From the NCBI RefSeq assembly GCF_002868715.1, contig NZ_PKLZ01000010.1, positions 62,001 to 126,000 of the forward strand: a stretch of DNA of 64,000 nucleotides. The letters run 5' to 3'. Below are positions 331 through 30,874 of this stretch, in pieces. The stretch's first letter is position 1, and each line of letters starts with the position of its first letter. The notes under the pieces were generated by a model, which saw only the letters and a program-made list of their open reading frames with translations, ran no database searches and was not told where the DNA came from. The DNA comes from Kineobactrum sediminis. GTDB lineage: Bacteria > Pseudomonadota > Gammaproteobacteria > Pseudomonadales > Halieaceae. Position numbers and translations under genes: made by a program.

Positions 331-1188
331 TTATGTGTTGGCGTTCGAGACCGCCGGCCCGACAGGGCTCAAGCGTTGCGATAGTGACTCCGGCAGCTCA
401 GCTATCAGCTTTTCGCGGTGTTCCAGAGCACTGAGATCGAGTTTCAGCGGTGTAACCGAAATACAGTTATCGGCGATGGCGCGCAAATCGGAGTCGGGAT
501 GCGAATCGCCATCCCTGTAGGACAGCATGATCCAGTAATAGGGATCCCCCTGGCCATCGGTGCGTTTTTCTGGGATATAACACCCAGGCGGCCTCTGCCC
601 CTGGATCGTGACCCTGACACCCTCAACCTCGTCGGGCGGGACGCCGGGGAAATTGACATTGAGGAACACCCCGGGGGGCATCTCCTGTTGCAGCAACTGC
701 TGCAACAGCGGCAGGCACCACTGCTCCGACGTTTCCCAGTGGATCTTTCGGTCCTCACCCACTGTGAAGTTCTTTTCTCCCGCCGCAAACACCTGGCTGA
801 TGGCGATGGCGGGGACACCAAGCTGGGTGGCTTCCCGGGCAGCGGCAATCGTTCCGGAATAGGCCGTATCCTCTGCCAGGTTGGGTCCGCGGTTGATACC
901 GGATATGCAGACCGAGGGGCGCCCGTCTGCAATGAGCTCATGGATACCCAGCATGGTGCACTCTGTCGGCGTACCACGCACGGCGAAGTGCCTGTCGTCA
1001 CGCTTGTAAACCCGCATGGGAGAATGGATTGACAGGGAATGCGATGCACCAGAACGATTGTCGTCCGGCGCGACGACCCAGACATCATTCGAAATCTGCC
1101 TCGCCGCTTCTTCGAGAATCTTCATCCCCGGCGCATCAATACCATCATCGTTTACCAAAAGAATGCGGTGGTCGGAAAGGTCTCTCAT
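331..1188 (-). CDS. SurE-like 5'/3'-nucleotidase (island copy 1)
   Basis: A 285-aa SurE-fold phosphatase, which in the family hydrolyses nucleoside monophosphates and short polyphosphate with a divalent metal. The N-terminal metal-binding NDDG (ILLVNDDGIDAPG), the SGASHS serine loop, the RGTPTEC segment and the SGINRGPNLAEDTAYSGT loop are all intact, so it should be active. The start at 1188 is preceded by GAGGAAG; an in-frame extension to 1239 adds non-conserved residues. It is divergent from the carboxylase operon and has two operator-like palindromes upstream. A housekeeping SurE normally sits beside pcm/nlpD/rpoS. This copy, and a second at 29975-30754, are in a catabolic regulon, so an island-specific phosphatase role is plausible but unproven. 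Confidence 0.85.
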   Translation of the reverse strand: MRDLSDHRILLVNDDGIDAPGMKILEEAARQISNDVWVVAPDDNRSGASHSLSIHSPMRVYKRDDRHFAVRGTPTECTMLGIHELIADGRPSVCISGINRGPNLAEDTAYSGTIAAAREATQLGVPAIAISQVFAAGEKNFTVGEDRKIHWETSEQWCLPLLQQLLQQEMPPGVFLNVNFPGVPPDEVEGVRVTIQGQRPPGCYIPEKRTDGQGDPYYWIMLSYRDGDSHPDSDLRAIADNCISVTPLKLDLSALEHREKLIAELPESLSQRLSPVGPAVSNANT

Positions 1189-1259
1189 GGCACTTCCTCG
1201 TTGCCGGGTGGTTTTCGCGGGATACAGATTACGCCCCACCGGCTTGAATTTATTCTTTA

Positions 1260-1558: not shown

Positions 1559-2320
1559 ATGACCAAGTTATTTGTGGATACCGACAAATACGGCGATGAA
1601 TCACCCTCCGCGGTGGTCGCCGCCTTTCATGGCAGCCTGCATGAGATTGTCCGTCAACGATTCGAGGAATCAGGCGCCGACTGGAAAGACTTTGTGCTTG
1701 GCGACGCCAACACACTGATTACCAAAGAAGACTTCGAGGCGGTCGACAGCGACCTGGTGGATGCCGGTCACCGCTACGACTGGTCCGCGGGCATTTCACA
1801 GAAAGAGCGCCCGGACGCCTACAAGCCAGCAGAGGGGACCAGTGATGCCGATCTTGCCGCCTTCTGCTTCCAGCACCCTGATGCGCCAATAGCGGAGCCG
1901 GATGCAGAAGGTCGTGAACTCCGTGGCGTCGGCGACAACGTCGTGCGCTACAACGAAAACACCACCGGCATTGCCCGCTATATACGCTCGACAGACCGCG
2001 TCCTGAAGTGGCTCACAGAGGGAGTGCCTGAAAACACGATAGCCGTGATCGACGACTCCGGCGGCACACTTACAGCACCAATCCTGGAACAGTTCAAAGG
2101 CGTCATATGCGCAGGTGGAACCGTGCGCTCGCACCTGGGCATCCTGACACGAGAGTACGGCATACCTTGCCTGATGAACGCCAAGGTCAACGGCATCATG
2201 GAGGGCGACACGGTGTCCATCGAGTCCACTGCCCGCGCCAAGACTGCCGACGATTACCAGGGTCAGACAAAGCGCGAAGTAACAGGCAATATCTGGCGCA
2301 CAGCCAAACGCGACGACTGA
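1559..2320 (+). CDS. Stand-alone PEP-utilising-enzyme mobile (phosphohistidine) domain protein
   Basis: A 253-aa protein and first gene of the operon. Residues about 120-230 resemble the swivelling phosphohistidine domain of PEP synthase and dikinases. The signature GGTVRSHLGI with REYGIP after it places the candidate phosphorylated residue at His192. The spacing GG-TVR-SH is one residue longer than the usual GG-xT-SH. The N-terminal 110 residues are not recognised, and no ATP-grasp is present. In the family, the histidine carries phosphate from an ATP-binding domain to an acceptor. Here the ATP-grasp is in a separate protein at 6051-7832, an arrangement reminiscent of phenylphosphate synthase, whose subunits are split. 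Acceptor unknown. Confidence 0.75.
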   Translation: MTKLFVDTDKYGDESPSAVVAAFHGSLHEIVRQRFEESGADWKDFVLGDANTLITKEDFEAVDSDLVDAGHRYDWSAGISQKERPDAYKPAEGTSDADLAAFCFQHPDAPIAEPDAEGRELRGVGDNVVRYNENTTGIARYIRSTDRVLKWLTEGVPENTIAVIDDSGGTLTAPILEQFKGVICAGGTVRSHLGILTREYGIPCLMNAKVNGIMEGDTVSIESTARAKTADDYQGQTKREVTGNIWRTAKRDD

Positions 2321-2392
2321 TAGCACCCCGATGACCGAAACGTCGCATCGCTCGTGTGATGCTCGCAATAACAGCAATAAAGGATCGAACTA

Positions 2393-3949
2393 ATGAAACT
2401 CGATTATGCACAACTACTGGAAAGCAACAATCTGCTGCAGATCAACGGCGACGAAACCTACTGGCTGTGCGTCACCCGTACCGTGCAGGAATCCAAGCTA
2501 TTCCCGGTACCGGCCTACATGTTGATGTCCTACCTCAACGCCTTCTATCGCTACCCCGCACTGCTGCGTAAGATCGAAGACAACATGAGCGCGGAGGAAG
2601 TGGGTGACCGTGCTCGCCACATGGGTGCAAAGGTCAACGCCATCGCCATGTGGGGCTTGCCCTGCTTTTACCTGCTGGGTCGCGAGTGGATGATCAACAT
2701 GGGCCTCCTGCGGCCACAAGATGCCGCCGAAGACGTCGCCTACATACTGGATTTCTGGAAGCGTTTCGAGCTGTCCTTTCGCCGCAATTCCGGACACAAA
2801 ACGGCATTTGAGGGCGGCCACCGCGGCCAGATTCACTCCGAAGCGCAACTGCAGGTCTTTCACGCGGATCTCTATGATTGTGAAGTCGGCGACTCCCTAC
2901 ACCAGGCCGCTCAGGCATTCGTCGCTTCTGCGTCGCAATATGCATTTCTGATCGCCTGTGAAAGTCGTATCAGCCTGCACAACCATGGTCCATATAACCT
3001 GGGCGATGACCGACAGATGATTGTGAGGGATTTTAACGACATCGCAGAATACGACTTCCCCTGGCTTGACGATGTTGCCGAAGGCGTACCTTATAACAAC
3101 CTCACGGTCACCATGGCCACTCAGGGCGTCAATTTCAATATCATGGACGACTGGGGCAGCTTCGAGTCCGACCCGGAGTTCAAGGACGAAAACATCGTCG
3201 GTGTCGGCCTGTATACCTCCGGCCCCCTGAGCGACGGCTTCCTGCCGGTTGGCATGGACAGCCGGGAAGAGCTGACCCAGACATTTCTCGATCTGAACAC
3301 CAGGGTCAAGGATGCGATGAGCCGCCTGTGGCAGAAGATGGCAGGTTGGTCCCGGGACCAGATGCTGGATGCGGGCGCTCTGACCTATTACGCAATCTTC
3401 AAGGACATGGCACACATCGCCGGCTGCTACGATCCAGAAGACTGGATCAAGATTGATCAGCGCGCCGAGCGCTTCCGTCCATTGCTGAACGATGAATACA
3501 GCCGGGACGCACTTGGCGAAATCTGTGTCGGCACGGGCCCCAGCCACCAGATCAACGACTACATGATGATGATGCACAACGATGCACCCACGCGCATCTA
3601 TTCACCTATCCCCTACTCCATTCTTGTCGACGGTGACTATGCCCCTACTGTTGGCGGCGTGGAGCCGGGTATCACCTATCTGGATGAGAAAAAAGATGCC
3701 TACCGCACAACCGAGGGCACACTGAGCATTGACGAATACAACGCGCGGGTTCGGAAGTTCCAGCCGGAACTTTACAAGGCGGAAAATCGACTCTTTTGCG
3801 AAACCACAGTCAAGTACCGCTATGAAACGCCCGAGGCCGACGCACTGTACAAACTCTATCAGAAGCACTCACGCAATCTTGCTGACAAGGGCGCAGGGCT
3901 ACGCCGTGACGATGTGGAAGCACTCCGCCAGAAAAACAACAAGGGATAG
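2393..3949 (+). CDS. Unrecognised 518-aa protein of the phosphotransfer/carboxylation operon
   Basis: A 518-aa soluble protein without signal peptide or membrane segment. I do not recognise a family. It is rich in aromatic residues and acidic loops, with distinctive short runs HNHGPYNLGDD (near residue 195), MATQGVNFNIMDDWG (near 245), CVGTGPSHQIN and DYMMMMHND (near 380). It starts at an ATG after AAAGGA and ends 5 bp before the CoA ligase, so it is translated with the operon. Its place between a phosphohistidine carrier and the CoA ligase suggests that it could be the substrate-binding or catalytic partner of the split phosphotransferase, as the substrate domain is in rifampicin phosphotransferase. 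That is inference from position only. Confidence 0.6.
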   Translation: MKLDYAQLLESNNLLQINGDETYWLCVTRTVQESKLFPVPAYMLMSYLNAFYRYPALLRKIEDNMSAEEVGDRARHMGAKVNAIAMWGLPCFYLLGREWMINMGLLRPQDAAEDVAYILDFWKRFELSFRRNSGHKTAFEGGHRGQIHSEAQLQVFHADLYDCEVGDSLHQAAQAFVASASQYAFLIACESRISLHNHGPYNLGDDRQMIVRDFNDIAEYDFPWLDDVAEGVPYNNLTVTMATQGVNFNIMDDWGSFESDPEFKDENIVGVGLYTSGPLSDGFLPVGMDSREELTQTFLDLNTRVKDAMSRLWQKMAGWSRDQMLDAGALTYYAIFKDMAHIAGCYDPEDWIKIDQRAERFRPLLNDEYSRDALGEICVGTGPSHQINDYMMMMHNDAPTRIYSPIPYSILVDGDYAPTVGGVEPGITYLDEKKDAYRTTEGTLSIDEYNARVRKFQPELYKAENRLFCETTVKYRYETPEADALYKLYQKHSRNLADKGAGLRRDDVEALRQKNNKG

Positions 3950-3954
3950 CAGCC

Positions 3955-5439
3955 ATGCAAATCAGTAGCCTGATCAGCCGCGCGGCCAGGCACTTCGGCG
4001 ACGCCCCCTGTCTTAGTGAAGGCAGCAGGATGGTCAGTTTCCGGGAGTTTGACGCCGCGACGAACCGCCTGGGTAACAGCCTGCTTGAGATAGGCCTCAA
4101 GCCAGGAGACCGCGTGGGCGTGATGCTACCTAACAGCATCGATTGCCTGGTGGCCTACTATGCCCTGGCCAAGTGTGGCCTGGTGCGAGTGGGCCTGAAT
4201 ACGCGCGAAACCATTGAGGACCATCGCTTCAAGCTGGGCGAGAGCGGCAGCCGGGCGGTGATTCACGATACCAGCGAAAACCTGGATGATCATGTCGAAT
4301 TTGTCATCGACCGCAAACGGCTGGGTCTGATGACCGACCAGGGCGATAACAGCACCTGCGCGGTCGACCGGGACATGGACGCGCCGCTGCGTCTCGGCTT
4401 TACAGGTGGCACGACTGGTCAGCCCAAAGCCGTGACACTCTCCACCCGCGGCGAGCTCAGCGAACTGTCCGCGTTTCTCACTGACCTGGTCCCGGATATC
4501 AGGGAAGGCGACAGCTTCCTGCATGCAGCTCCTATCGCCCACGCCTCTGGTGCTTTTTTCCTGCCGGCGCTATGTCGCGGCGCGCATTCGTTGATCATGC
4601 CCAGGTTTGATGCCGAGGAGTTCGTCAGACTGGCAGTGGAAACACAGGCCAACCTGACTTTCCTCGTCCCGACCATGCTGGCGATGATTCTTGAAGTCCC
4701 CGGTATAGAGGATGCGAACCTCAGTTTTCGTCGAATCGCCTACGGTGCCTCACCCATCTCACCGCGGCTGCTTGAACGCGCGGAATCGCGCTTTGGCCGG
4801 GTGTTTGCACAGAGCTACGGACAGGCAGAAAGCCCGATGGTCATCACCTGCCTGAAACCCGAGGACCACGACCGCATCGGCTCCTGTGGCCGCCCCTTCG
4901 TCATCGCCGACGTTGCGGTTCTCGACGACAACGATCAGCCCCTGCCTCCCGGAGAGACAGGTGAAATTTGCGTGCGCGGCCCTCAGATCATGGCAGGCTA
5001 CTGGAACCGGCCGGATGCGACGGCAAAAGCCATGCGCAACGGCTGGCTGCACACTGGCGACATCGGCACCATGGATGAAGACGGCTTTTTCTACTTGCTG
5101 GATCGCAAGAATGACATGCTGATCTCCGGCGGATTCAACGTGTACCCACGAGAAGTCGAGGACATTCTGATGGCCTGCGACGGGGTCGTTGAGGCGGCCG
5201 TGATTGGCCTTCCAGACGAAAAATGGGGTGATCGCGTGCAAGCCGTCGTGTCCGGACGCCCGGATCTCGACAGCGATGTTGTTCTCGCGTGGGCAAAAGC
5301 ACATCTCGCGAGTTATAAGTGCCCTAAAAGAGTAGAAGTCTGGCAGGAGCTACCCAAGAGCGCAGCAAACAAGATTCTGCGCAGAAAGGTCCGCGAAACA
5401 ATCGTTAAACGCGACTCTGGCGAGACTCGGGAGGTATAA
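3955..5439 (+). CDS. AMP-forming acyl-CoA ligase (ligase 1)
   Basis: A 494-aa ANL-superfamily adenylating enzyme that would activate a carboxylic acid to its CoA thioester via an acyl-AMP. The phosphate-binding loop is GFTGGTTGQPKAV, a variant of the usual YTSGTTGxPKG. Then follow SYGQAESP, GWLHTGDIG, the hinge region LLDRKNDMLISGGFNVYPREVE and the C-terminal catalytic lysine in KILRRKVRE. A good Shine-Dalgarno (AAGGGA) precedes the ATG, 5 bp after the upstream stop. In this operon it could activate the 3-oxoacid product of carboxylation before the thiolase, or the initial substrate. A close functional relative is encoded at 32116-33687. Confidence 0.88.
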   Translation: MQISSLISRAARHFGDAPCLSEGSRMVSFREFDAATNRLGNSLLEIGLKPGDRVGVMLPNSIDCLVAYYALAKCGLVRVGLNTRETIEDHRFKLGESGSRAVIHDTSENLDDHVEFVIDRKRLGLMTDQGDNSTCAVDRDMDAPLRLGFTGGTTGQPKAVTLSTRGELSELSAFLTDLVPDIREGDSFLHAAPIAHASGAFFLPALCRGAHSLIMPRFDAEEFVRLAVETQANLTFLVPTMLAMILEVPGIEDANLSFRRIAYGASPISPRLLERAESRFGRVFAQSYGQAESPMVITCLKPEDHDRIGSCGRPFVIADVAVLDDNDQPLPPGETGEICVRGPQIMAGYWNRPDATAKAMRNGWLHTGDIGTMDEDGFFYLLDRKNDMLISGGFNVYPREVEDILMACDGVVEAAVIGLPDEKWGDRVQAVVSGRPDLDSDVVLAWAKAHLASYKCPKRVEVWQELPKSAANKILRRKVRETIVKRDSGETREV

Positions 5440-5442
5440 AGA

Positions 5443-6048
5443 ATGCAGGATTTACAACTGGTAATGCACGGCATCGCCGTCAAGAAATACGCGACTGTGG
5501 ATGATATCTGCTCTATCACCGGACTCGAATCCACCACTGTCCAGCAACTATTGTCCCAGGCAGTAGCCAAGGGACGAGTGAGTGAGGTGAATGACAAGTA
5601 CCTGTTGACGCCAACGGGGCAGATAATGCTCAAGTCAGCGTACAGTAAGGCTTACGGTAGTCTGCGCCGCGACGAGGAATTTGTTGCAGCCTACGAAGAC
5701 TTCGAACGCATCAACAATGACCTGAAGCAGGTCATCACGGAGTGGCAGACCATCGAGATTGGTGGGCAGACCGTGGCCAATGATCATTCGGATAAGGACT
5801 ATGACTCCGCGATTATCGACCGCATCAGCGATATTCACGAACGGGTGGACGGGGTTCTGGAGCGCCTTGGTCGCCAAGAATCACGTCTTAATCGCTATCG
5901 GGAAAAACTGCTTTCGGCGCTGGAAAAGGCAGAAGACGGCGACATAAGCTGGGTCAGCGATGCTACCATTGAGAGCTACCACACCGTCTGGTTCGAGTTA
6001 CATGAGGATCTGCTCCGTATCATGGGTCGCGAACGAGAGGAATCCTGA
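5443..6048 (+). CDS. Small winged-helix-like / helical protein, possible accessory subunit
   Basis: A 201-aa protein. Residues about 1-70 look like a winged helix: VDDICSITGL, TTVQQLLSQAVAKGRV and KYLLTPTG fit helix-turn-helix plus wing. The remainder is charged and helical, with a probable coiled coil around residues 115-165 (RISDIHERVDGVLERLGRQ). It begins 3 bp after the CoA ligase stop behind a strong GGGAGG and ends 2 bp before the dikinase-like gene, so the stoichiometry is likely coupled. It could be a regulator, but its position inside the operon directly before the dikinase-like gene suggests a dedicated partner, as a third small subunit stimulates phenylphosphate synthase. No family was recognised with certainty. 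Confidence 0.55.
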   Translation: MQDLQLVMHGIAVKKYATVDDICSITGLESTTVQQLLSQAVAKGRVSEVNDKYLLTPTGQIMLKSAYSKAYGSLRRDEEFVAAYEDFERINNDLKQVITEWQTIEIGGQTVANDHSDKDYDSAIIDRISDIHERVDGVLERLGRQESRLNRYREKLLSALEKAEDGDISWVSDATIESYHTVWFELHEDLLRIMGREREES

Positions 6049-6050
6049 GC

Positions 6051-7832
6051 ATGGCCACCACCCCCTTACAGGGCAAATGGCTGCTTGCTCTCGATGGCTG
6101 CGATCTGCCCGAAAAAGCGCTTATTGGAGGCAAGGCCTGGTCCATCGCCCATATGCTGCGCCAGGGACTACCCGTCCCGCCCGCCTTTGTAATCACGACC
6201 GAGGCCTGCGCCGCCTATCTGGAAACAGGCGAACTGCCTGCGGGGCTGGACGACGAACTGCAGGCGGCCATGCAGTGGCTGGAAGGTCAAACGGGCAGGA
6301 CATACGGCCGGGGCAATGCACCCCTACTGGTCTCGGTCCGTTCCGGGGCGCCGATTTCCATGCCCGGAATGATGGACACCGTTCTCAACCTGGGCATCAA
6401 CGCCGAGACCATGCAGGCGTTTGCGGCTGAATCCGGCGATGACCGGTTTGCCCGCGACACCTATCGCCGCTTTCATGAGCTGTATGGAGAGATCGTGCTC
6501 AAGGTTCCCGTTCCGAAGTTAAGCGATGACCAAGAGCTGTCAGAGTGGCGCGCGAGAATCGAGAAAGCAGCCGGCGAAGCGGTCCCTGATGCGCCCATAG
6601 AGCAGCTCAAGGCTACGATAGAAGCCGTTTTCCGTTCCTGGACTTCGCGCCGGGCGAAACGCTATCGCAAGCACCACGATATCCCGGACAGCCTGGGCAC
6701 GGCAGTCACCGTTCAGGCCATGGTATTTGGCAACCTGGACCAGAATAGCGGGACCGGCGTTCTGTTCAGCCGTAATCCGCTTACCGGTGAACCGGTGCCT
6801 TACGGTGAGTACCTGCGCTGCGCCCAGGGCGAGGATGTCGTCTCCGGCAAATATACACCCGAGCACCTTGATGACATGAAAGTCGCTGTGCCGGACGCCT
6901 ACAAGGCGCTGATCGACGCTGCACAGATACTGGAAAGCGCCAACCGGGAGGTCCAGGACATCGAATTCACGGTGCAGCACGGCAAACTCTATCTACTGCA
7001 ATCGCGCACCGCAAAACGCTCCCCCGCGGCTGCCGTGCGTATTGCCGTAGACATGTACCGCGAAGGCCATATAGATATTGAAGATGCCATACGGCGGGTC
7101 AATCCAGATCAGGTCCACAGCATACTCAGCCCGCGATTGGGCGAGGGCGCTAGCGCAGGCGCAACTGTTCTTGCCAGCGGTCTTGGCGTATCCCACGGCA
7201 TCGGCGTTGGCACGGTTGTAAGCGATGCGGATGAAGCCGAACGCCGTGCGCATACCGGAGAGGATGTGGTCCTGGCAACTGCGACGACGAGCCCCGACGA
7301 TGTACACGGCATGCTCGTGGCACGAGCGGTCATTACCGAACAAGGGGGCTCCACCTCTCACGCCGCCGTCGTGGGCCGTGCGCTGGGATTGCCCAGTGTA
7401 GTTGGTTGCGGCGTCGGGGCGGTCACCGCGCTGCATGGCCAGCTAGTGACCGTCGACGGAGAGCACGGCAAGATCTACAGCGGTGCGCTGGAAGTTGTCA
7501 GACCTCAGGAAACTGAAGACGATCGCCTTGCCGAACTCCTGTCCTGGGCGCGCAAACACAGCCCGCTCATCGTATACCGTCCCGACGAGGCACCGCAAGA
7601 CACGCTGGACCTCGAAAGCAACGACGACGCGGCAGACCCGGCTAACCTGCCGGCACTGATAAAAGGTGCCCGCGGTGCCCGCGGCGGTGCGATTGCCAGT
7701 GAAGCGGGCGTGAAAGCCGCGCTGCAAGCGGGACTGGAATATATCGTCGCCGAACCCACGTTGCCGGCCCTGCTGGCAGCAATCCATGCCGGGGGCACAA
7801 CAGAATCAATTCCATCAACAGAGAACGACTGA
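6051..7832 (+). CDS. Pyruvate phosphate dikinase-like protein lacking the PEP/pyruvate barrel
   Basis: A 593-aa protein. Residues 1-330 match the dikinase ATP-grasp (GGKAWS, LPVPPAFVITTEAC, VSVRSGAPISMPGMMDTVLN, DSLGTAVTVQAMVFGN, GTGVLFSRNPLTGE, QDIEFTVQHGKLYLLQSRT). Residues 370-480 form the phosphohistidine swivel domain, with the catalytic His437 in GGSTSHAAVVGRALG. A normal dikinase has about 870-900 residues. The C-terminal TIM barrel that binds PEP/pyruvate is missing here and is replaced by about 110 non-conserved residues ending near GLEYIVAEPTLPALL. It should therefore make phosphohistidine from ATP but cannot make PEP alone. A separate acceptor protein is needed; the neighbours at 1559 and 2393 are candidates. 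Confidence 0.85.
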   Translation: MATTPLQGKWLLALDGCDLPEKALIGGKAWSIAHMLRQGLPVPPAFVITTEACAAYLETGELPAGLDDELQAAMQWLEGQTGRTYGRGNAPLLVSVRSGAPISMPGMMDTVLNLGINAETMQAFAAESGDDRFARDTYRRFHELYGEIVLKVPVPKLSDDQELSEWRARIEKAAGEAVPDAPIEQLKATIEAVFRSWTSRRAKRYRKHHDIPDSLGTAVTVQAMVFGNLDQNSGTGVLFSRNPLTGEPVPYGEYLRCAQGEDVVSGKYTPEHLDDMKVAVPDAYKALIDAAQILESANREVQDIEFTVQHGKLYLLQSRTAKRSPAAAVRIAVDMYREGHIDIEDAIRRVNPDQVHSILSPRLGEGASAGATVLASGLGVSHGIGVGTVVSDADEAERRAHTGEDVVLATATTSPDDVHGMLVARAVITEQGGSTSHAAVVGRALGLPSVVGCGVGAVTALHGQLVTVDGEHGKIYSGALEVVRPQETEDDRLAELLSWARKHSPLIVYRPDEAPQDTLDLESNDDAADPANLPALIKGARGARGGAIASEAGVKAALQAGLEYIVAEPTLPALLAAIHAGGTTESIPSTEND

Positions 7833-7833
7833 C

Positions 7834-8355
7834 ATGAAAAATGTGACTGCAGACGAGATCAAGAACCTGATCCAGATCTTCGATGACTCGGAGTGGCAAG
7901 AGCTGGCGCTACAAGTCGAGGACTTCAGAATTTTCCTGTCGCGCGACCCGAACTCTGCCGGGGCACCCTGGCAAGGCGCGCAGACGGCGCAGGTACCCGC
8001 GACTACAGTGGCGCCGGCGCCTGCTACAGCCCCCCAACAACCGTTAGGCAGCGCTGCGGCAGCCCAGCCCACTGCTGCGCCGGTCGTTGAGAGCACGCTG
8101 GTTCCAGACAACTGTGTGGTAGTGAAGGCACCTAACCTGGGGATTTTCTACCGGGCACCGAAGCCTGGCGCAGCTTCCTATGTCGAACTCGGCGCCGAGG
8201 TTGACAATGAAACTGAGATCTGCCTGATCGAGGTAATGAAGTTGTTTACGCCGGTGCATGCCGGCATGCGTGGCATAATCCGGCACATCTGCGTGGAAGA
8301 TGGTGACATGGTCGAGTTCGATCAACCTCTGTTCTACATTGAGCCTACGGAATAG
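7834..8355 (+). CDS. Biotin carboxyl carrier protein
   Basis: A 173-aa AccB-type carrier. The N-terminal 45 residues resemble AccB (IKNLIQIFDDSEWQELALQVEDF), followed by an Ala/Pro/Gln-rich linker (about 50-90) and a lipoyl/biotinyl domain with the biotinylation motif EVMKL, Lys136 being the acceptor. The start at 7834 is 1 bp after the dikinase stop; the in-frame upstream codons belong to the preceding gene. It would shuttle carboxybiotin between the biotin carboxylase (8364) and the carboxyltransferase (9738). Since accB/accC pairs for fatty-acid synthesis are usually elsewhere with housekeeping neighbours, this is a pathway-specific copy. Confidence 0.92.
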   Translation: MKNVTADEIKNLIQIFDDSEWQELALQVEDFRIFLSRDPNSAGAPWQGAQTAQVPATTVAPAPATAPQQPLGSAAAAQPTAAPVVESTLVPDNCVVVKAPNLGIFYRAPKPGAASYVELGAEVDNETEICLIEVMKLFTPVHAGMRGIIRHICVEDGDMVEFDQPLFYIEPTE

Positions 8356-8363
8356 GTCACGAT

Positions 8364-9731
8364 ATGGCCATTTCACGACTGTTCATCGCCAACCGGGGTG
8401 AAATTGCCGTGCGCATCGTTCGCGCAGCGCATTCCCTTGGAATTGAAACCGTACTCGGCAGCTCGGCTGCCGATGCGGAAAGCCTTGCTGCACGCACGGC
8501 CCACCGCACGGTCATTGTTGGTCCGGCGGAACCCGCCCGCAGCTACCTGGATGAGAAACTGATAGTGCAGGCCGCACTGGGTGCAGGCTGTGACGCCCTG
8601 CATCCCGGTTACGGATTCCTGTCGGAAAGACCTGCGCTGGCCAGGCTGTGCGAAGAAAACGGCATCGCATTCGTGGGCCCGCGTCCGGAAACCATCGAAG
8701 CCCTGGGAGACAAACTCAGCGCACGGCGCATTGCCGAGGCGTCGGGCGTCCCCCTCGTGCCAGGCACCCCGGCACTGGAGTCAGCCGAAGACGCCTGCGC
8801 TGCCGCAGATGAGATCGGTTATCCGGTGGTCATGAAGGCCACGGCGGGTGGTGGTGGCCGCGGCATGTTCCTCGCGCGTGGACCAGAAGATGTCAGGACA
8901 TCTTTCAACAAGGCATCGGAAGAAGCACGCGCAGCATTTGGCGATGGATCACTATATATCGAGCGCTTTGTCGAAAGTGCCCGGCACGTGGAAGTCCAGG
9001 TGTTCGGTGACGGCGAAGGGAGAGTGCTGCATTTCGGCGAGCGCGACTGCTCCGTACAGCGCCGCTACCAGAAGCTGATTGAGGAGGCCCCCTGCACGGT
9101 CATGCCGGATGCGGTTCGCGCCGACCTGCATGCGGCGGCCGTGAAGCTGACCTCCGACCTGAATTACCGCAATGCCGGTACGGTGGAATTCCTGTTCGAC
9201 GTCGAGCGAGGCGAATTCTATTTCATTGAAGTCAATGCCAGAATCCAAGTCGAGCACCCGGTGAGCGAACTCATTTCACGGCGAGACCTGGTTGCCATGC
9301 AGCTGCAGCTCGCTGGCGGTGAACCCCTGAACTTGCAGCAATCCGATATCGTACTGCACGGCCACGCCATTGAATGCCGGGTCAACGCTGAGGATCCGGA
9401 TCATGGATTCCGGCCGAGTCCGGGTCGCCTTACCACCTGGGAGCCACCGGATATGGACTTCGTGCGCCTCGATACATTCTGCAGCGAAGGAACGCTGATT
9501 CCTCCCTATTACGACAGTATGGTTGGCAAGCTGATCGTCTATGGCAACAATCGCAGCGAAGCGCTGCAGCGCATGGATGAAGCCATTGGCCGCTTCTCGC
9601 TGGCCGGCATTAAGACCAATATGCCACTGCAACACTTCATCATCCGACACCCGGATTTTCGCAATAACCTGATAACGACAAGCTGGCTGGAGAAAATCGG
9701 CCTGCCTGCATTCGCCAATCGAGAGGAGTAA
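8364..9731 (+). CDS. Biotin carboxylase subunit
   Basis: A 455-aa biotin carboxylase (ATP + bicarbonate + biotin-carrier to carboxybiotin). The N-terminal domain starts with SRLFIANRGEIAVRI, the ATP-grasp has the glycine loop KATAGGGGRGM, and the catalytic segment EVNARIQVEHPVSE is intact. So is the biotin-carboxylase C-terminal domain (HAIECRVNAEDP, FRPSPG, YYDSMVGKLIVYG). Length and motifs match AccC / pyruvate carboxylase subunit A. It lies between its carrier and an HMGL-type carboxyltransferase, which is the gene set of two-subunit pyruvate-carboxylase or 2-oxoglutarate-carboxylase systems rather than of acetyl-CoA carboxylase. Confidence 0.93.
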   Translation: MAISRLFIANRGEIAVRIVRAAHSLGIETVLGSSAADAESLAARTAHRTVIVGPAEPARSYLDEKLIVQAALGAGCDALHPGYGFLSERPALARLCEENGIAFVGPRPETIEALGDKLSARRIAEASGVPLVPGTPALESAEDACAAADEIGYPVVMKATAGGGGRGMFLARGPEDVRTSFNKASEEARAAFGDGSLYIERFVESARHVEVQVFGDGEGRVLHFGERDCSVQRRYQKLIEEAPCTVMPDAVRADLHAAAVKLTSDLNYRNAGTVEFLFDVERGEFYFIEVNARIQVEHPVSELISRRDLVAMQLQLAGGEPLNLQQSDIVLHGHAIECRVNAEDPDHGFRPSPGRLTTWEPPDMDFVRLDTFCSEGTLIPPYYDSMVGKLIVYGNNRSEALQRMDEAIGRFSLAGIKTNMPLQHFIIRHPDFRNNLITTSWLEKIGLPAFANREE

Positions 9732-9737
9732 GGCGCT

Positions 9738-11192
9738 ATGGCGCATATTGAATTTCTGGACGAAACACTTCGCGACGGACAGCAGAGTCTGTGGGGCATG
9801 CAGATGCGCGCCGGCATGGCGCTGCCCATGACCCCGACCCTTGACAAGAGCGGCTTCCGGGTTATCGACCTGGCCGGGTCTTCGATGTTCGAGGTGCAGA
9901 TCCGGGTCAACAGTGAAAACCCCTGGGAAAGTCTGGACTTGTTGACTGAGTCCATGCCGAACACCCCGATTCGCGGCGGCATGCGCGCTAACGCCTCGGT
10001 GACCTTCGGCGTGACACCGGACGCGATGATGGACATGTGGATGCGCCAGCTGAATGTACACGGCTGCCGCTCTTTCTGGATCTATGATGTCCTTTTCAAC
10101 ATCGACAAGATGCACCGTCTGGCGAAAGTGGCCAAGGAGTTTGGCTCCGAGGTTGCGGGCTCGATCATGTTCACATCCAGCCCGGTACACACTGACGAAT
10201 ACTACGCGGATAAAGCCGACAAGCTGTCCGTTTGCCCCGACATCGACACGATCCTTCTCTACGATACGGCCGGGGTTCTGGATAAGGAACGGATGCAGAC
10301 ACTTATACCGGCCATTCAGGCGAACGCCCGCGGCAAGCCGATCGAGTTCCACTCGAACAATATACTGGGCATGTCCGGCAAGGCCTACTGCGACGCAATC
10401 GAGCTGGGCGTCAGGATCCTGCACACTGCCAGCCGCCCCATGGCAAATGGCCCGTCTGTGCCCTCTACTGAAATCATGACCCGCAACGTCGAACTACTGG
10501 GACACACACACAACATCGACACCTCTATGCTGCCCCCGGTGGCAGAACACTTCGAAAAAGTCGGCAAGGCGGCCGGCTTCCTGGTCAATCAGCACCATGA
10601 GTACGATGTGCTTTCTGCAAGTCACCAGATACCCGGCGGCATGATCGGCACACTGCGAGCGCAGATGGCCAAACACAACCTTAGCCACCGCATGGATGAT
10701 GTGCTGATGGAGACCGCGAAGGTTCGCGCGGAACTCGGCTATCCCGGCATGGCGACTCCGTTCTCCCAGCTCGTCGGCATCCAGGCCGTACTCAATATAG
10801 TTAATGGTGAGCGCTACAAAATCGTCCCGGACGAGGTCATCCAGTACGCAGCCGGCTTCTACGGCGATCCGGTGGCGCCGATCGACGAGAATATCTATGA
10901 CCGTATCATGAGTTCTCCGCGCGCAAAGAAGGTCGCCGCAAACCCCCCGCAGCAGCCCACGGAGGAAGAACTCTATAAGGAATATGGCACCCGCGACCCT
11001 GACGAGCTGATTTTGCGTGCCCTGATGCCAGAGGCAGATCTCAAGAGGATGCGTGAAGCGGGACCGGTGCAGCGGGATTACCCGATGCTCTCCTCTCCCG
11101 AGCTGGCAGAGGTGGGTCGATTGATGAAAGTGGCGCAGGCACCATTGGTGCAAATCGAGTCGCAGAACCTCAGTGTCACTTTGAGGAAGTAA
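9738..11192 (+). CDS. HMGL/pyruvate-carboxylase-type carboxyltransferase with altered metal site
   Basis: A 484-aa protein related to oxaloacetate decarboxylase alpha and the carboxyltransferase domain of pyruvate carboxylase. It has DETLRDGQQSLWG at the N-terminus, a TIM barrel, then HQIPGGM and GYPGMATPFSQLVGIQAV of the conserved C-terminal domain. Family members bind a metal through the Asp of RDAHQ, a carboxylated Lys in IKDMAG and two His in HTHDT. Here Asp13 and His205 remain, but the Lys position is Tyr175 (LLYDTAG) and the second His is Asn207 (FHSNN). The HQ of RDAHQ is also changed, to QQ. There is no biotinyl domain; the carrier is separate. The changes suggest a substrate or mechanism different from pyruvate carboxylation. 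Confidence 0.85.
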   Translation: MAHIEFLDETLRDGQQSLWGMQMRAGMALPMTPTLDKSGFRVIDLAGSSMFEVQIRVNSENPWESLDLLTESMPNTPIRGGMRANASVTFGVTPDAMMDMWMRQLNVHGCRSFWIYDVLFNIDKMHRLAKVAKEFGSEVAGSIMFTSSPVHTDEYYADKADKLSVCPDIDTILLYDTAGVLDKERMQTLIPAIQANARGKPIEFHSNNILGMSGKAYCDAIELGVRILHTASRPMANGPSVPSTEIMTRNVELLGHTHNIDTSMLPPVAEHFEKVGKAAGFLVNQHHEYDVLSASHQIPGGMIGTLRAQMAKHNLSHRMDDVLMETAKVRAELGYPGMATPFSQLVGIQAVLNIVNGERYKIVPDEVIQYAAGFYGDPVAPIDENIYDRIMSSPRAKKVAANPPQQPTEEELYKEYGTRDPDELILRALMPEADLKRMREAGPVQRDYPMLSSPELAEVGRLMKVAQAPLVQIESQNLSVTLRK

Positions 11193-11196
11193 TATT

Positions 11197-12390
11197 ATGG
11201 CTACCCGGCGCGCAGTTATCGTGGATGTTATTCGAACGCCCTTCGGGCGAGGCCGCGAATCGGGCGCCCTGGCGCACTGGCATCCTGTGGATCTGTACGC
11301 ACAGGTGCTGCGGGGCTTAGTAGAACGCAACAGCGTGGATCCGGCTCTGATCGAGGATGTTATCACTGGCTGCGTCATTCAGGTGGCCGAACAGTCGGGA
11401 AACATTGGCAGGCAAGCGGTGCTTGCGGCTGGCTTCCCGGAATCCGTGCCCGCCGTCTCCCTGGATCGCAAATGCGGCTCTGCTCAGCAGGCGGTGGATT
11501 TCGCGGCCCAGGGCGTGATTGCCGGTGCCTGCGATCTCGTCATCGCCGGCGGCGTGGAGATGATGAGCCGCGTACCCATGCGCGCGAACCGCATGGGCAA
11601 GGATAATATGGGTAGTGCATACCACGCGCGCTATCCCCAGGGTCTGGTCGGGCAAGGCATCTCAGCTGAGCTTATAGCGGCGAAGTGGGGTCTTGGGCGC
11701 GAGGAACAGGACCGTTTCGCACTGCGCTCTCACCAGCGTGCCGCAGCAGCAGAAGACACGGGCAGCACAGCACGCGATATTCTCCCTCTTCTCGGCCATG
11801 CGCCCGGGATGCAGCCTGTCAGCCGGGACGAGGGCCTGCGACGAGATACCACTCTGGAGAAGCTGGCAGGCCTGAAACCGGCATTCGAAGATCCTGCCAT
11901 GCTGGAGCGATTCCCGCAAATCAACTGGTCGGTCAGCGCCGGCAACGCAAGCCAGGTGACCGATGGCGCATGCGCCGTCCTGATCGCAGAAGAGAGCACC
12001 GCGGCCCGACTCAATCTCACGCCGCGCGCGAGCGTCGAGGGATTTGCGGTTGTCGGTGATGACCCCCTTATGATGCTGACTGGCGTGATCCCGGCGACGG
12101 AAAAACTGCTTCGACGCTCCGGTCTCTCCATTGGTGACATAGACGCATTCGAGGTAAACGAGGCTTTCGCCTCGGTCGTGCTCGCCTGGCAAAAACACTT
12201 CGGGGCAGATCCAAAACGCATCAATCAGCTCGGGGGAGCCATAGCGCTGGGTCATCCTGTAGGGGCATCCGGAGGCCGGCTCCTGGGTAACCTGTTGCGA
12301 TCACTTGAAGAAAGCAAGGGCAACTATGGCCTGCAGACCATGTGTGAGTCCGGCGGCATGGCCAACGCTACACTGATAAAACGGCTGTAG
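11197..12390 (+). CDS. Acetyl-CoA acetyltransferase-family thiolase
   Basis: A 397-aa thiolase that would cleave a 3-oxoacyl-CoA with CoA, or condense two acyl-CoAs. The nucleophilic cysteine lies in DRKCGSAQQ, the catalytic His in GGAIALGHPVGASGG and the second cysteine in MCESGGMANAT; the NEAFA motif is present. GAGGAAG inside the end of the preceding gene provides the ribosome site, and the ATG is 4 bp after its stop. As last gene of the operon it is a natural final step for a carboxylation / CoA-ligation route that yields a 3-oxoacyl-CoA. Confidence 0.92.
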   Translation: MATRRAVIVDVIRTPFGRGRESGALAHWHPVDLYAQVLRGLVERNSVDPALIEDVITGCVIQVAEQSGNIGRQAVLAAGFPESVPAVSLDRKCGSAQQAVDFAAQGVIAGACDLVIAGGVEMMSRVPMRANRMGKDNMGSAYHARYPQGLVGQGISAELIAAKWGLGREEQDRFALRSHQRAAAAEDTGSTARDILPLLGHAPGMQPVSRDEGLRRDTTLEKLAGLKPAFEDPAMLERFPQINWSVSAGNASQVTDGACAVLIAEESTAARLNLTPRASVEGFAVVGDDPLMMLTGVIPATEKLLRRSGLSIGDIDAFEVNEAFASVVLAWQKHFGADPKRINQLGGAIALGHPVGASGGRLLGNLLRSLEESKGNYGLQTMCESGGMANATLIKRL

Positions 12391-12438: not shown

Positions 12439-13167
12439 TCAGTGCTGCGTCGCGGCCGCGTAGGCATCGTCAGGCAGAGTGGTCAGACTCAGGCGTCGAC
12501 GGCGGAGATGCGCCCTTGCGGTACGCTCGGCCTTCTTGGAATCCCCCTCCATCACTGCCTCGACAATTGCGTGCAGCTCCTTGAGTTGACTTTCGTGCTG
12601 TTTGCGCGACACGAAGGCCTGGAACTGCAGACGCAGTAGACTGATTTGCATTCGCGGCACCATATGCTGTAACTCACGATTGCGACCGATATCGTACAGC
12701 GTATCGTAGAACCGCCGACGCTCATCCAGAAACGCCAGTGTCTCGCCCTCCTCGCCTTCATGCATCGCCGACTCGAAAGCTTCCTGTAGCCGCTGGCGGT
12801 TATCGCCTTCGTTGATATGTCGAGCGGCCAGTTTGGCCGCGAGGCCCGCCAGGACTTCCAGAACGCACATCATGTCCCGGACTTCGTCGCGGGACTGGGC
12901 CCGGACAAAGGCGCCACGATGCTTGTTCAGCACCAGGACGCCTTCGCCGGCAAGTCGCTTGAATGCCTCCCGTACCGGCCCCCGGCTCACCTTCAGCTCT
13001 CGGGTCAGGTCAGCCTCAATAAGCCGCTGTCCAGGGACGTAGCGTCCTTTTTTGATGCCCGAGAGAATGGCTTCCATGACGCGACGCGGCGAGCTTACAG
13101 ATTTTCCCGGATCCACTGCCTCCGTGCTTCCTCGGACTCCTGTTTCATTATTCCTGTTAGCTGTCAT
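12439..13167 (-). CDS. GntR-family regulator with FCD-like domain (regulator 1)
   Basis: A 242-aa transcription regulator. The winged helix (GRYVPGQRLIEADLTRELKVSRGPVREAFKRL) covers residues about 38-85 and an FCD-type helical effector domain follows. The recognition-helix core SRGPVREA is identical to that of the second GntR at 33768. In the effector domain the usual metal-ligand FH position reads FYDTL, so classical metal binding is probably lost or altered, although His is kept in ELHAIV and RAHL. The start at 13167 is chosen because it gives the same distance to GRYVPGQ as in the paralogue; starts up to 13245 are possible. It is convergent with the carboxylase operon and is the best candidate for binding the island operators. 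Confidence 0.85.
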   Translation of the reverse strand: MTANRNNETGVRGSTEAVDPGKSVSSPRRVMEAILSGIKKGRYVPGQRLIEADLTRELKVSRGPVREAFKRLAGEGVLVLNKHRGAFVRAQSRDEVRDMMCVLEVLAGLAAKLAARHINEGDNRQRLQEAFESAMHEGEEGETLAFLDERRRFYDTLYDIGRNRELQHMVPRMQISLLRLQFQAFVSRKQHESQLKELHAIVEAVMEGDSKKAERTARAHLRRRRLSLTTLPDDAYAAATQH

Positions 13168-13257
13168 ATCTTCTAACACGCTGCTCGCTCCACGGCTTCC
13201 ACGCTGGTGTGATGTTCGACGCTGGTGCAGATGCATTTCCTGCACACAAATCGCTTT

Positions 13258-13341: not shown

Positions 13342-14124
13342 CTAGATACGCGCCGACGTTCCACCATCAATCATGATGATGGACCCATTGGTATAGGTTG
13401 ACTCATCCGATGCCAGATAAACGCAACCGTACGCGACCTCGTCCGGCGTGCCGGTGCGACGCATGGGACAGAAGCGATCCGCCACCGCCTCATCGTCGAA
13501 CATGGAAATGTGGGTCTCAATCATCGGTGTATCGATAAAGCCGGGGCAGACACAGTTGGCGCGCACACCATCAAGGGCGTAGGCCGCGCAAAGTGAGCGT
13601 GTGAGATTGACGATCGCGCCCTTGGCCGTAGTGTAGGCGTGTGCATCCGGGTGTCCCTTGACCCCCAGCACCGAAGAAATATTGATGATCGATCCGTTGC
13701 CCTGCTCCTTCATGTGTGGAATCACGAGTCGGCACATGTAGAAAATCGAGTCCAGGTCAATGGCCATCACCTCGCGCCACAGCTCCGGCGTGGTCTCCGT
13801 CACCGCGCCCATCGACCCGGCGTGGGTCTTCTCCCAGGAATAGCCCACGCCTGCGCCGTTCAGCAGAATATCAACACGCCCGTATTTGGCAATCGCGGCA
13901 TCAACCAGTTTCTGCGACCCCTCAGGCGTGGACAGGTCCGCCGCGACTACAATACCCTCACCGCCGTCGCGGGAAACGTTGGCCAGCGTTTCATCCAGAT
14001 TACTCTGGGTCCTGGAACACCCGACGACCTTCGCCCCCTCACGAGCAAAAAGCTCCATGCAAGCGCGCCCGATTCCTGACCCGGCGCCTGTAACAATCGC
14101 AACTTTATCCTGTAAACGTCCCAT
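13342..14124 (-). CDS. Short-chain dehydrogenase/reductase (SDR 1)
   Basis: A 260-aa classical SDR. The cofactor motif TGAGSGIG is followed by NGAG, the catalytic Ser in NISSVLG, and Tyr/Lys in AYTTAKG; PGFIDTPM follows. A GGAGATAAA ribosome site precedes the ATG. It shares an unusual insert, AGVGYSWEK...GSM, with SDR 2 at 18959 (55-60% similar by eye), so the two are paralogues and probably act on related alcohol or ketone intermediates. It is divergent from the alcohol dehydrogenase at 14366 across a 241-bp intergenic region with an operator. Substrate unknown. Confidence 0.88.
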   Translation of the reverse strand: MGRLQDKVAIVTGAGSGIGRACMELFAREGAKVVGCSRTQSNLDETLANVSRDGGEGIVVAADLSTPEGSQKLVDAAIAKYGRVDILLNGAGVGYSWEKTHAGSMGAVTETTPELWREVMAIDLDSIFYMCRLVIPHMKEQGNGSIINISSVLGVKGHPDAHAYTTAKGAIVNLTRSLCAAYALDGVRANCVCPGFIDTPMIETHISMFDDEAVADRFCPMRRTGTPDEVAYGCVYLASDESTYTNGSIIMIDGGTSARI

Positions 14125-18958: not shown

Positions 18959-19744
18959 ATGGGACGTTTAAATGGCAAAGTGGCACTGATTACCGGTGCA
19001 GGCAGCGGTGTGGGCGCCGCATGTATGGACCTGTTCCTTGCCAAGGGAGCAAAGGTGGTGGGTGTCGGCAGGACCGAGTCACATCTGCAGGACACTCTTG
19101 ACGGTCTTGAGGATATTCATGCCAGCAGCGCCCGCATCGTAGCCGCCGATGTCAGCACCGAGACAGGTGTCGAGTGTGCGGTCCAGCACGCAAAAGACGC
19201 ATTTGGCAGCATAGATATACTTGTGCATGCGGCGGGTGTGGGCTACAGCTGGGAAAAGCAAAGCCCTGGATCCATGGCGGACGTGGTCCACGTTACGCCA
19301 GACAAGTGGAGCGAGGTCATGCGTATTAATCTAGACGCATACTATCTGCTGTGTCGGGCCATTGTGCCTGTAATGAAGGCAGGAGGCGGTGGGTCTATTG
19401 TCGGCGTGACCAGTATCTCCGGCTTCCAGGGGCTGTCGGCAGCGCATGCGTACACTGCTGCAAAAGCCGGCATGATCAACCTGACCCGATCCATGAGCGT
19501 GAGTTACGTAAGGGACAATATCCGCGTCAACTGCATCGCTCCGGGGTTTATCGCCACGCCGATGGTCGAGGACGTGCTAAATCTCTTTGACGATGCACAA
19601 ACCGCAGAGCAGCTGAGCCCGATGTGCCGGCCGGGAACGCCGGAGGAAATGGCCTATGGCTGCCTGTACCTCGCCTCTGATGAATCCACCTATTGCAGTG
19701 GCACGGTACTGGTAATCGATGGCGGCACTACCGCGAGACAGTGA
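18959..19744 (+). CDS. Short-chain dehydrogenase/reductase (SDR 2), paralogue of SDR 1
   Basis: A 261-aa classical SDR: TGAGSGVG, HAAGVGYSWEK, catalytic Ser in VTSISG, Tyr-Lys in AYTAAKAG, then APGFIATPMVED. The shared AAGVGYSWEK...GSM insert identifies it as a paralogue of SDR 1 at 13342. AGAGGAGAAA precedes the ATG. It heads a plus-strand unit with acyl-CoA dehydrogenase, enoyl-CoA hydratase and 3-hydroxyacyl-CoA dehydrogenase, so it likely oxidises a hydroxyl on the route into beta-oxidation. Confidence 0.9.
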   Translation: MGRLNGKVALITGAGSGVGAACMDLFLAKGAKVVGVGRTESHLQDTLDGLEDIHASSARIVAADVSTETGVECAVQHAKDAFGSIDILVHAAGVGYSWEKQSPGSMADVVHVTPDKWSEVMRINLDAYYLLCRAIVPVMKAGGGGSIVGVTSISGFQGLSAAHAYTAAKAGMINLTRSMSVSYVRDNIRVNCIAPGFIATPMVEDVLNLFDDAQTAEQLSPMCRPGTPEEMAYGCLYLASDESTYCSGTVLVIDGGTTARQ

Positions 19745-26254: not shown

Positions 26255-26362
26255 AGCGTGCCTCATATTGATTATTGGTTTTGCATTCAAGTAAATGAAT
26301 CTGACTTCACTTAGTCTTGTTACGAACCGGCTTTGCCGCAGAAGCCCCGATGACGCAGACCT

Positions 26363-30754: not shown

Positions 30755-30835
30755 AGTATTTTCTCCAGGACAATGCGCGGTATGCACCGGCGTAGTTGAT
30801 AAGAAGTCATGCAAGCATGTTACATTACTACTTTT

Positions 30836-30846
30836 TTGTCATACAA
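30836..30846. promoter_or_regulatory. Operator and promoter between surE copy 2 and the SCP2-type thiolase
   Basis: A perfect TTGTCATACAA palindrome ending 28 bp before the thiolase ATG. It overlaps a good plus-strand -10, TACAAT (30842-30847), with GTTACA (30819-30824) as a -35-like element 17 bp upstream. Binding would block RNA polymerase. It is 82 bp from the surE start on the other strand. Confidence 0.6.
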
Positions 30847-30874
30847 TAAAATGTCACCCAAAAGGCGAAACAAT

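Follow-up and report, generated by a model that had tools for sequence, protein, structure and literature searches.

What does an operon that joins the parts of a dikinase to a biotin-dependent carboxylase do for its host? The question is raised by a locus of Kineobactrum sediminis, analyzed here within a window of 64,000 nucleotides (the whole stretch of DNA studied; contig NZ_PKLZ01000010.1, positions 62,001 to 126,000), where nine genes, G1 to G9, code for a phosphohistidine protein (G1), a protein of no known family (G2), an acyl-CoA ligase (G3), a small protein with a winged-helix part (G4), half of a pyruvate phosphate dikinase (PPDK; G5), a biotin carboxyl carrier protein (G6), a biotin carboxylase (G7), a carboxyltransferase (G8) and a thiolase (G9). 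These genes form one co-conserved unit, and, judging from the sequences, we give about an even chance to the reading that the operon serves to break down a hydroxylated ketone by phosphorylation, carboxylation, dephosphorylation, ligation to CoA and thiolysis, similar in logic to the Hpe pathway of Rhodococcus rhodochrous GD02.

We hypothesize that the route would begin with a short-chain dehydrogenase/reductase (SDR, 13342-14124) oxidizing a secondary alcohol to the ketone. The four-protein dikinase (G1, G2, G4 and G5) would phosphorylate a hydroxyl group of the substrate, with His437 of G5 taking the phosphate from ATP and passing it to His192 of G1 and from there to the substrate bound on G2, while G4 would serve as a scaffold. 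G7 would then carboxylate the biotin on G6, G8 would transfer the CO2 to the carbon adjoining the ketone, and a SurE-family phosphatase (331-1239) would remove the phosphate. Finally, G3 would form the 3-oxoacyl-CoA, and cleavage by G9 would give acetyl-CoA (or another acyl-CoA) and a shortened acyl-CoA. We infer each of these reactions from the gene content.

A co-conserved unit of nine genes

The open reading frame (ORF) calls place all nine genes on the forward strand between 1559 and 12390, with successive gaps of 72, 5, 3, 2, 1, 8, 6 and 4 bases, in agreement with the original prediction, which was made from the letters alone and had described nine tightly spaced genes in this order; the domain types it had named were matched by a Pfam scan as well (window proteins were scanned against Pfam and NCBIfam, and matches judged against the family cut-offs). 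The start of G6 was set at Met 7834, since the alignments with L016 and L017 begin there (the mechanical ORF starts at 7786). The spacing suggests a single transcript, and promoter- or terminator-like sites were no more frequent than in shuffled sequence.

All nine genes occur in the same order in six further loci, L015 to L020 (two from Haliea records, one from bacterium 005FR1 and three from genomes that belong to a second family within the class), at 44-97% identity to the window, making seven clusters with the complete order. G2 is rare; beyond K. sediminis, it was found in 3 of the 368 genomes of a class sample, all three with the full nine genes, and in none of the 397 genomes of a partly overlapping phylum sample. 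A scan of a species-genome collection (84,980 genomes by the tool description, of which a single-protein query reaches close relatives only) returned Haliea alexandrii, a Haliea metagenome-assembled genome and bacterium 005FR1; G2 of K. sediminis and of Haliea alexandrii are 95% identical. Among 72,556 plasmid records, a tblastn search with G2 matched four. Plasmids pRB98 of R. oxybenzonivorans and pA of R. pyridinivorans (the Rhodococcus clusters L026 and L027) keep the order from G1 to G8, and the genes that come next there encode an OB-fold protein, a different type of thiolase and a tyrosine-protein phosphatase. On plasmid pSA1 of Novosphingobium resinovorum these families stand in another arrangement, in which the ligase is a more distant one and two thiolases are present, and Paraburkholderia PGU19 holds distant homologues of G1, G2, G4 and G5 with alcohol dehydrogenase (ADH), aldehyde dehydrogenase (ALDH) and ligase genes, no carboxylase being seen in this kinase region. 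The nine families are thus co-conserved across genomes and plasmids, so that the original prediction passes its own check on this point, and a split dikinase-type kinase, biotin carboxylase, CoA ligase and thiolase belong to one unit. Judged by titles and opening lines of abstracts, the papers found for R. oxybenzonivorans S2-17 and R. pyridinivorans P23 apparently do not deal with the cluster.

Two genes outside the nine, overlooked in the original prediction, are likely members of the system, namely those for the SurE phosphatase and the SDR (Table 1). Homologues of the SDR adjoin the cluster in L015-L020 and the partial kinase modules L021-L023, and the GntR/FCD regulator gene is likewise conserved as a neighbour of the cluster, in L015-L017 and also in L019 (42%).

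Table 1. Genes of the operon and its immediate flanks, with positions in the window
Feature	Coordinates	Strand	Evidence and remarks
SurE-family phosphatase gene	331..1239	-	PF01975 2e-56; divergent from operon; proposed HpeD role, dephosphorylating the carboxylated product
G1 phosphohistidine (swivel-type) protein, 253 aa, His192	1559..2320	+	PEP-utilizers PF00391 3.3e-8
G2, 518 aa, no known family, proposed acceptor-substrate-binding kinase subunit	2393..3949	+	no Pfam/NCBIfam match; fusions in relatives
G3 AMP-forming acyl-CoA ligase	3955..5439	+	AMP-binding PF00501 1.2e-75
G4, 201 aa, winged-helix + long helix, proposed accessory kinase subunit	5443..6048	+	AlphaFold2; G2 fusions in relatives
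G5 half PPDK, His437, proposed phosphate donor	6051..7832	+	PPDK_N PF01326 + PF00391
G6 biotin carboxyl carrier protein	7834..8355	+	Biotin_lipoyl PF00364 2.2e-15; VMKL at residue 134
G7 biotin carboxylase	8364..9731	+	PF00289/PF02786/PF02785
G8 carboxyltransferase, separate clade	9738..11192	+	PYC_OADA PF02436 1.1e-27; HMGL-like barely above cut-off
G9 thiolase	11197..12390	+	PF00108/PF02803; TIGR01930 437 bits vs cut-off 240.55
GntR/FCD regulator, probable operon regulator	12439..13245	-	PF00392/PF07729
SDR dehydrogenase, proposed alcohol-to-ketone step	13342..14124	-	PF13561 1e-60

The kinase module

By Pfam, G5 consists of an ATP-grasp and a phosphohistidine domain only (PF01326 and PF00391). 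It scored 705 bits against NCBIfam PRK05878 (cut-off 456) and matched the N-terminal half of PPDK structures in the PDB with E-values down to 7.8e-119, and no C-terminal domain binding phosphoenolpyruvate (PEP) or pyruvate was found by Pfam, so that G5 does not class as a PPDK proper. The phosphohistidine domain of G1 is more divergent than that of G5. Both histidines are conserved, His192 of G1 in 15 of 15 aligned rows and His437 of G5 in 11 of 11, counts from which L016 and L017 were omitted as near-duplicates of the window. An ATP-grasp domain with a conserved swivel histidine links the system to the small-molecule dikinase superfamily (RPH, HpeHI, Pps, Cre), and in G5 the sequence surrounding His437 conforms to the published motif T/SXXGGXXXH.

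G2 matched no Pfam or NCBIfam family, and PDB searches gave a best E-value of 0.41 with the G2 profile and nothing up to E 0.01 with the G1 profile. For G4 no Pfam or NCBIfam family was found above cut-off, winged helix-turn-helix Pfam matches lying below it; the best AlphaFold2 model reached a predicted local distance difference test score (pLDDT) of 86, the other four 64-79, and a Foldseek search with the best model gave no match below E 0.001, the best matches (E of at least 0.008) being mostly winged-helix regulators and some methyltransferases. The Rhodococcus plasmids pRB98 and pA carry a separate protein that fuses a G1-like to a G2-like domain, L021 and L022 have G2 and G4 in a single protein, and a 793-aa protein of R. 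opacus B4 unites G1 (19-105), G2 (228-548) and G4 (603-790), with a PPDK-type gene about 7 kb away and cytochrome P450, ALDH, ADH and phosphatase genes around it. These fusions indicate that G1, G2 and G4 probably act together. In addition, the carrier genomes G314 and G091 have two G2 modules and one G5 each, G213 has two G2 modules, one G5 and one longer PPDK, and K. sediminis has one G5 and one longer PPDK (G5 and PPDK counts at E up to 1e-20). The occurrence of two G2 modules with one G5 suggests that one donor serves several acceptors, with a probable His-to-His phosphate relay.

Related kinase modules were also seen in other settings. In L041 (884-13154, plasmid pROB02 of R. opacus B4), genes for a half PPDK, P450, ALDH, ADH, CoA ligase and a tyrosine-type phosphatase accompany the fused 793-aa kinase, with no carboxylase annotated, perhaps a phosphorylate-oxidize-dephosphorylate cluster reminiscent of the cre genes. 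In the second family of the class that carries the nine genes, further copies (L021 8275-13694, L022 7950-11857 and L023 28-2994) have fused or adjacent G2 and G4 with an SDR, G1 being present except at the contig edge of L023 and a lone carboxyltransferase standing in L021; these are kinase modules with neither a donor of their own nor biotin subunits nearby.

The presence of two phosphohistidine domains and the winged-helix part of G4 could also be read as signs of a regulatory or protein-phosphorylating phosphorelay in which G1, G2, G4 and G5 control the pathway and do not act on its substrate, since relays of the phosphotransferase system (PTS) likewise have two phosphohistidine domains. 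We consider this very unlikely, because a separate GntR regulator gene exists and because the Hpe, Pps and Cre kinases of the superfamily, according to PMC12167813, act on substrates, and clusters of that kind were found in this analysis. In the open-access PMC literature, we found no description of this kinase type or of a role of SurE such as the one proposed here.

The carboxyltransferase, the phosphatase and the fate of the phosphate

In a tree of 20 carboxyltransferase rows (L016 and L017 were omitted as near-duplicates of the window, and L022 and L023 because no carboxyltransferase was found there), G8 and nine relatives form one clade (100/99), and five carboxyltransferases of Hpe-type clusters form a separate one (100/99). 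The Hpe-type rows lie beside an HpeHI-type kinase (L038, L042) or a Tm-1-like protein (L035, L036, L039), together with a haloacid dehalogenase (HAD) phosphatase. Both clades and a long-branched Sulfitobacter row share a common fork (96/90) in which the branching order is not fixed, and G8 is far from the two OadA rows. At the alignment positions of the metal-binding Asp, the carbamylated Lys and the HxH pair, G8 keeps Asp8 and His205. The position of the metal-ligand Lys is occupied by Tyr (Tyr175) in 7 of 7 window-type rows, by Glu in 3 of 3 Rhodococcus rows and by Lys in the 10 others, and that of the second metal His by Asn (Asn207) in the seven window-type rows and by His in the remaining 13; the three Rhodococcus rows of the G8 clade keep both His. 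G8 thus does not have the metal site of pyruvate carboxylases and oxaloacetate decarboxylases. The carbamyl-lysine/HxH site is thought essential in the carboxyltransferase superfamily, and G8 may bind its substrate or its metal in another way, or may lack activity. A further residue, Arg83, at a position that binds the carboxylate in pyruvate carboxylases, is kept in all 10 rows of the G8 clade and is Thr in the five Hpe-type rows.

These features bear on another explanation of the operon, namely that it is a pyruvate carboxylase or oxaloacetate decarboxylase set of the usual anaplerotic kind, next to which the other genes lie by chance. The domain families match such a set, but the replacement of the carbamylated-Lys and second metal-His positions in all seven window-type sequences, the distance from OadA in the tree and the co-conservation with kinase and ligase genes across families and phyla make it extremely improbable, and we rejected it. 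The original prediction, which would have fallen with such a set, stands on this point; on its sequence, G8 is unlikely to be anaplerotic and is distinct from the Hpe type as well.

Other carboxylases were noted on plasmids. In L037 (13099-16467, R. opacus G13), carboxylase subunits of the G8 clade have Glu at the metal Lys position, and no kinase gene was detected within the 31 kb fetched. On plasmids of Sphingobium (L035 4936-10321), Pseudomonas putida (L036 8883-14365) and Novosphingobium humi (L039 8929-14317), a Tm-1-like ATP-binding protein, not a dikinase, precedes an Hpe-type carboxylase and a HAD phosphatase, and is possibly another kinase for the same step. L053 (5980-9392, Caballeronia NK8) has carboxyltransferase, biotin carboxyl carrier protein and biotin carboxylase genes near acetoacetate decarboxylase and carbonic anhydrase genes, perhaps another ketone carboxylase.

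The SurE gene next to the operon belongs clearly to its family (PF01975 191 bits, cut-off 22.1; PDB SurE 2.7e-70), and in 8 of 8 proteobacterial clusters examined (window, L015-L019, L025, G091) a SurE gene is found no more than about 5.3 kb away. It stands upstream of the cluster in Haliea and 005FR1, while the three genomes from the second family have it downstream, so that the adjacency was kept through rearrangement. An annotated tyrosine-protein phosphatase takes its place in L026, L027 and L041, and that one role is filled by two different families of phosphatase speaks for dephosphorylation as a step. Overall, a phosphatase gene stands in or beside all 10 complete clusters (window, L015-L020, L025, L026, L027) and at 3 of 6 partial kinase modules (L041, and L021 and L022 weakly, where the ORF directly upstream resembles the tyrosine-protein phosphatase at 66-80 bits). 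Three SurE matches were found in the K. sediminis genome, two of them in the window, where the second lies beside genes for an SCP-type thiolase and an acyl-CoA ligase (29975-33687); this thiolase shares 49% identity with one encoded in the pSA1 cluster of Novosphingobium, so that the region seems to be a further cleavage set belonging to the island.

The phosphatase helps to decide where the phosphate would be placed. The original prediction had a ketone or enol phosphorylated from ATP and then carboxylated; on this reading, a PPDK-like reaction would phosphorylate the ketone on its enol oxygen, and G8 would carboxylate the enol phosphate. PPDK makes an enol phosphate and G5 is of PPDK type, and the Arg83 that G8 keeps where the five Hpe-type rows have Thr suggests that an anion may be bound by G8 near the carbon that reacts. 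On the other hand, a phosphatase at 10 of 10 complete clusters would have no purpose if carboxylation itself released the phosphate, and fits better a phosphate on a hydroxyl that survives it, as in Hpe. Related kinase modules among ADH and ALDH genes (with a P450 in L041), where no carboxylase was seen, also point to the phosphorylation of a hydroxyl. We therefore regard the enol-phosphate route as unlikely; the predicted chemistry appears broadly right in joining kinase, biotin carboxylase, CoA ligase and thiolase, and doubtful in its choice of phosphate acceptor.

Substrate and relation to known systems

In the Hpe pathway, as described in PMC9618137, a dikinase phosphorylates 4-hydroxyacetophenone or acetovanillone, the biotin enzyme carboxylates only the phosphorylated ketone and HpeD then dephosphorylates the product; CoA ligation by HpeE and acetyl-CoA release by HpeF are proposed steps. 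The same paper reports that the acv genes of SYK-6 are homologous to hpe, that the carboxylase genes XccBCA of EbN1 are clustered with hpeHI homologues, and that the discoverers knew of no other aerobic aromatic pathway with carboxylation. The p-ethylphenol degradation of EbN1 involves a dehydrogenase (Hped1), a carboxylase, a CoA ligase and a predicted thiolase (PMC10715001). The original prediction had held that no described pathway combines these parts, which does not hold: Hpe in GD02 and acv in SYK-6 do so (PMC9618137, PMC12167813), and the EbN1 route ends in carboxylase, CoA ligase and thiolase.

Considering this precedent, the operon could serve the ordinary hydroxyphenylethanone route, in which the phenol group of 4-hydroxyacetophenone or acetovanillone receives a phosphate and the compound is then carboxylated and cleaved, yielding 4-hydroxybenzoyl-CoA or vanilloyl-CoA. 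The logic is that of Hpe/Acv and of EbN1, and the G8 clade neighbours the Hpe-type one. The genome of K. sediminis (completeness 99.99%), however, showed no PobA above cut-off, no intradiol dioxygenase and no LigB extradiol dioxygenase, and the lack of the first two makes a simple phenolic route unlikely. Among the six carrier genomes (K. sediminis and five others, G091, G213 and G314 being genome labels), intradiol dioxygenase was matched in G314 and G091 and not in the three remaining others, so that four of six are without it. K. sediminis does have an HsaC/BphC-like extradiol enzyme (G000 C37:297571-298452; L051 9551-10531), below both family cut-offs, with thiolase, acyl-CoA synthetase and ribB-type genes as neighbours, which tempers the case against the hydroxyacetophenone route. 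As the kinase is also of another type and G8 does not show the combination of Thr, Lys and HxH found in the Hpe-type rows, we consider this route rather unlikely.

From its sequence context, the substrate of the proposed Hpe-like route is more likely an alicyclic or isoprenoid hydroxy-ketone than a simple phenol. A P450 lies about 13 kb from G2 in the Novosphingobium island, with best PDB matches to CYP125, CYP153 and CYP124 types, so that the substrate may be an isoprenoid or a steroid side chain. Around the operon, the window holds SDRs, an acyl-CoA dehydrogenase (both Rhodococcus clusters have homologues of it, at 49-51%, no further than about 10 kb away), an enoyl-CoA hydratase, a 3-hydroxyacyl-CoA dehydrogenase, TonB receptors and the second SurE-thiolase-ligase set. 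Three TonB-dependent receptor genes within 14 kb (16499-18820, 23840-26290 and 27443-29788) in the same catabolic island suggest a substrate that is bulky or dissolves poorly. Growth on cholesterol has been reported for a Halieaceae isolate (PMC5790920). The steroid ring pathway was considered as a substrate class and rejected: KshA_C has six matches above cut-off in K. sediminis and matches in three of the six carriers, and none in the other three, so that the cluster does not follow this pathway.

Several observations weigh against the proposed route. The histidine loop of G1, GGTVRSH, departs from the published motif and fits it only in part. G2 showed no detectable similarity to the acceptor region of HpeH (hhalign), and its profile gave a negative profile-profile comparison with RPH; the control was weak, as the HpeH acceptor region reached 12.8% probability against the single RPH sequence (full HpeH 99.8%), so that a common ancestry may have gone undetected. 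The AlphaFold2 model of G2, built with four close sequences, has a pLDDT of 33, too poor for use. L028 and L040 hold kinase parts with no biotin carboxylase seen, and none is annotated in L041, which indicates that the kinase is not tied to carboxylation. A phosphatase was not seen at L023 (contig edge), L028 (no annotation) and L040, and SurE is a widespread nucleotidase family whose adjacency could serve something else. The assignment of the SDR is ambiguous, because the second window SDR (18959-19744) is nearly as similar to the L018-L023 proteins (47-55% identity, against 54-57% for 13342-14124), which makes orthology uncertain. Finally, with two usual metal ligands replaced, G8 might not be an active carboxyltransferase.

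The unit would represent a second co-conserved system in which phosphorylation precedes biotin-dependent carboxylation, with another kinase acceptor and phosphatase, in a host without PobA above cut-off or intradiol cleavage. This suggests a strategy that may serve to open ketones in general, and not in lignin breakdown alone. The unit also provides a candidate function for an unclassified 518-aa family and for half PPDKs, and a carboxyltransferase whose changed metal site can be put to the test. Going further, we tentatively propose, with rather less than even confidence, that G5 is a hub relaying phosphate from histidine to histidine to exchangeable modules of G1, G2 and G4, as Enzyme I serves several PTS branches. 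This would be a third small-molecule dikinase architecture, whose modules would serve carboxylation or ADH/ALDH/P450 routes for various hydroxylated compounds in aerobic bacteria, here acting on non-aromatic hydroxy-ketones, with G8 working without the carbamyl-lysine/HxH metal site.

Compared with Hpe (HpeHI, HpeCBA, HpeD, HpeE, HpeF) and AcvABCDEF of Sphingobium SYK-6, the operon shares the proposed order of chemistry (ATP dikinase, three-subunit biotin carboxylase, phosphatase, CoA ligase and cleavage of a 3-oxoacyl-CoA) and has a carboxyltransferase of a neighbouring clade. It differs in the kinase, here a half PPDK with a separate phosphohistidine protein, the 518-aa protein and a winged helix-turn-helix protein. 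HpeH combines acceptor and swivel and HpeI is ATP-grasp only, the histidine lying on HpeH and not on HpeI (PMC12167813), whereas G5 has its own phosphohistidine domain and G1 is a separate swivel protein; according to the same source, the published phenolic kinases have an ATP-grasp motif closer to PEP synthase than to PPDK. The phosphatase is SurE here and the NagD-like (HAD) HpeD in Hpe, with no HAD domain in any of the 29 window proteins to which the search was confined, and the cleavage enzyme is a thiolase in place of the hydrolase HpeF. G8 stands outside the Hpe/Xcc-type clade, whose reference rows are homologues and not GD02 itself, and differs at metal-site and substrate-Arg positions, and, of the PobA/protocatechuate branch, neither PobA above cut-off nor an intradiol dioxygenase was found in the K. 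sediminis genome. On these differences in kinase, phosphatase, cleavage enzyme and carboxyltransferase clade, we regard the predicted system as a variant of the Hpe logic and not as an Hpe member. The route of Aromatoleum aromaticum EbN1 (Hped1, HacABC = XccABC, AcsA1, TioL1) likewise has a dehydrogenase, carboxylase, CoA ligase and predicted thiolase in sequence, but is anaerobic and aromatic and converges on 4-hydroxybenzoyl-CoA, the relation being judged through the homologues in L038 and L042. PPDK resembles G5 in its N-terminal half only, its pyruvate/PEP-binding C-terminal domain not being found in G5. With phenylphosphate synthase PpsAB, CreHI, HpeHI and rifampin phosphotransferase, the kinase shares ATP-grasp and swivel-histidine parts and, as proposed, action on small molecules, and, as in the first three, these parts are split over proteins; it is set apart by two histidine domains per system, a PPDK-type donor, an acceptor protein without detectable similarity to theirs, and one donor with two acceptor modules in G314 and G091.

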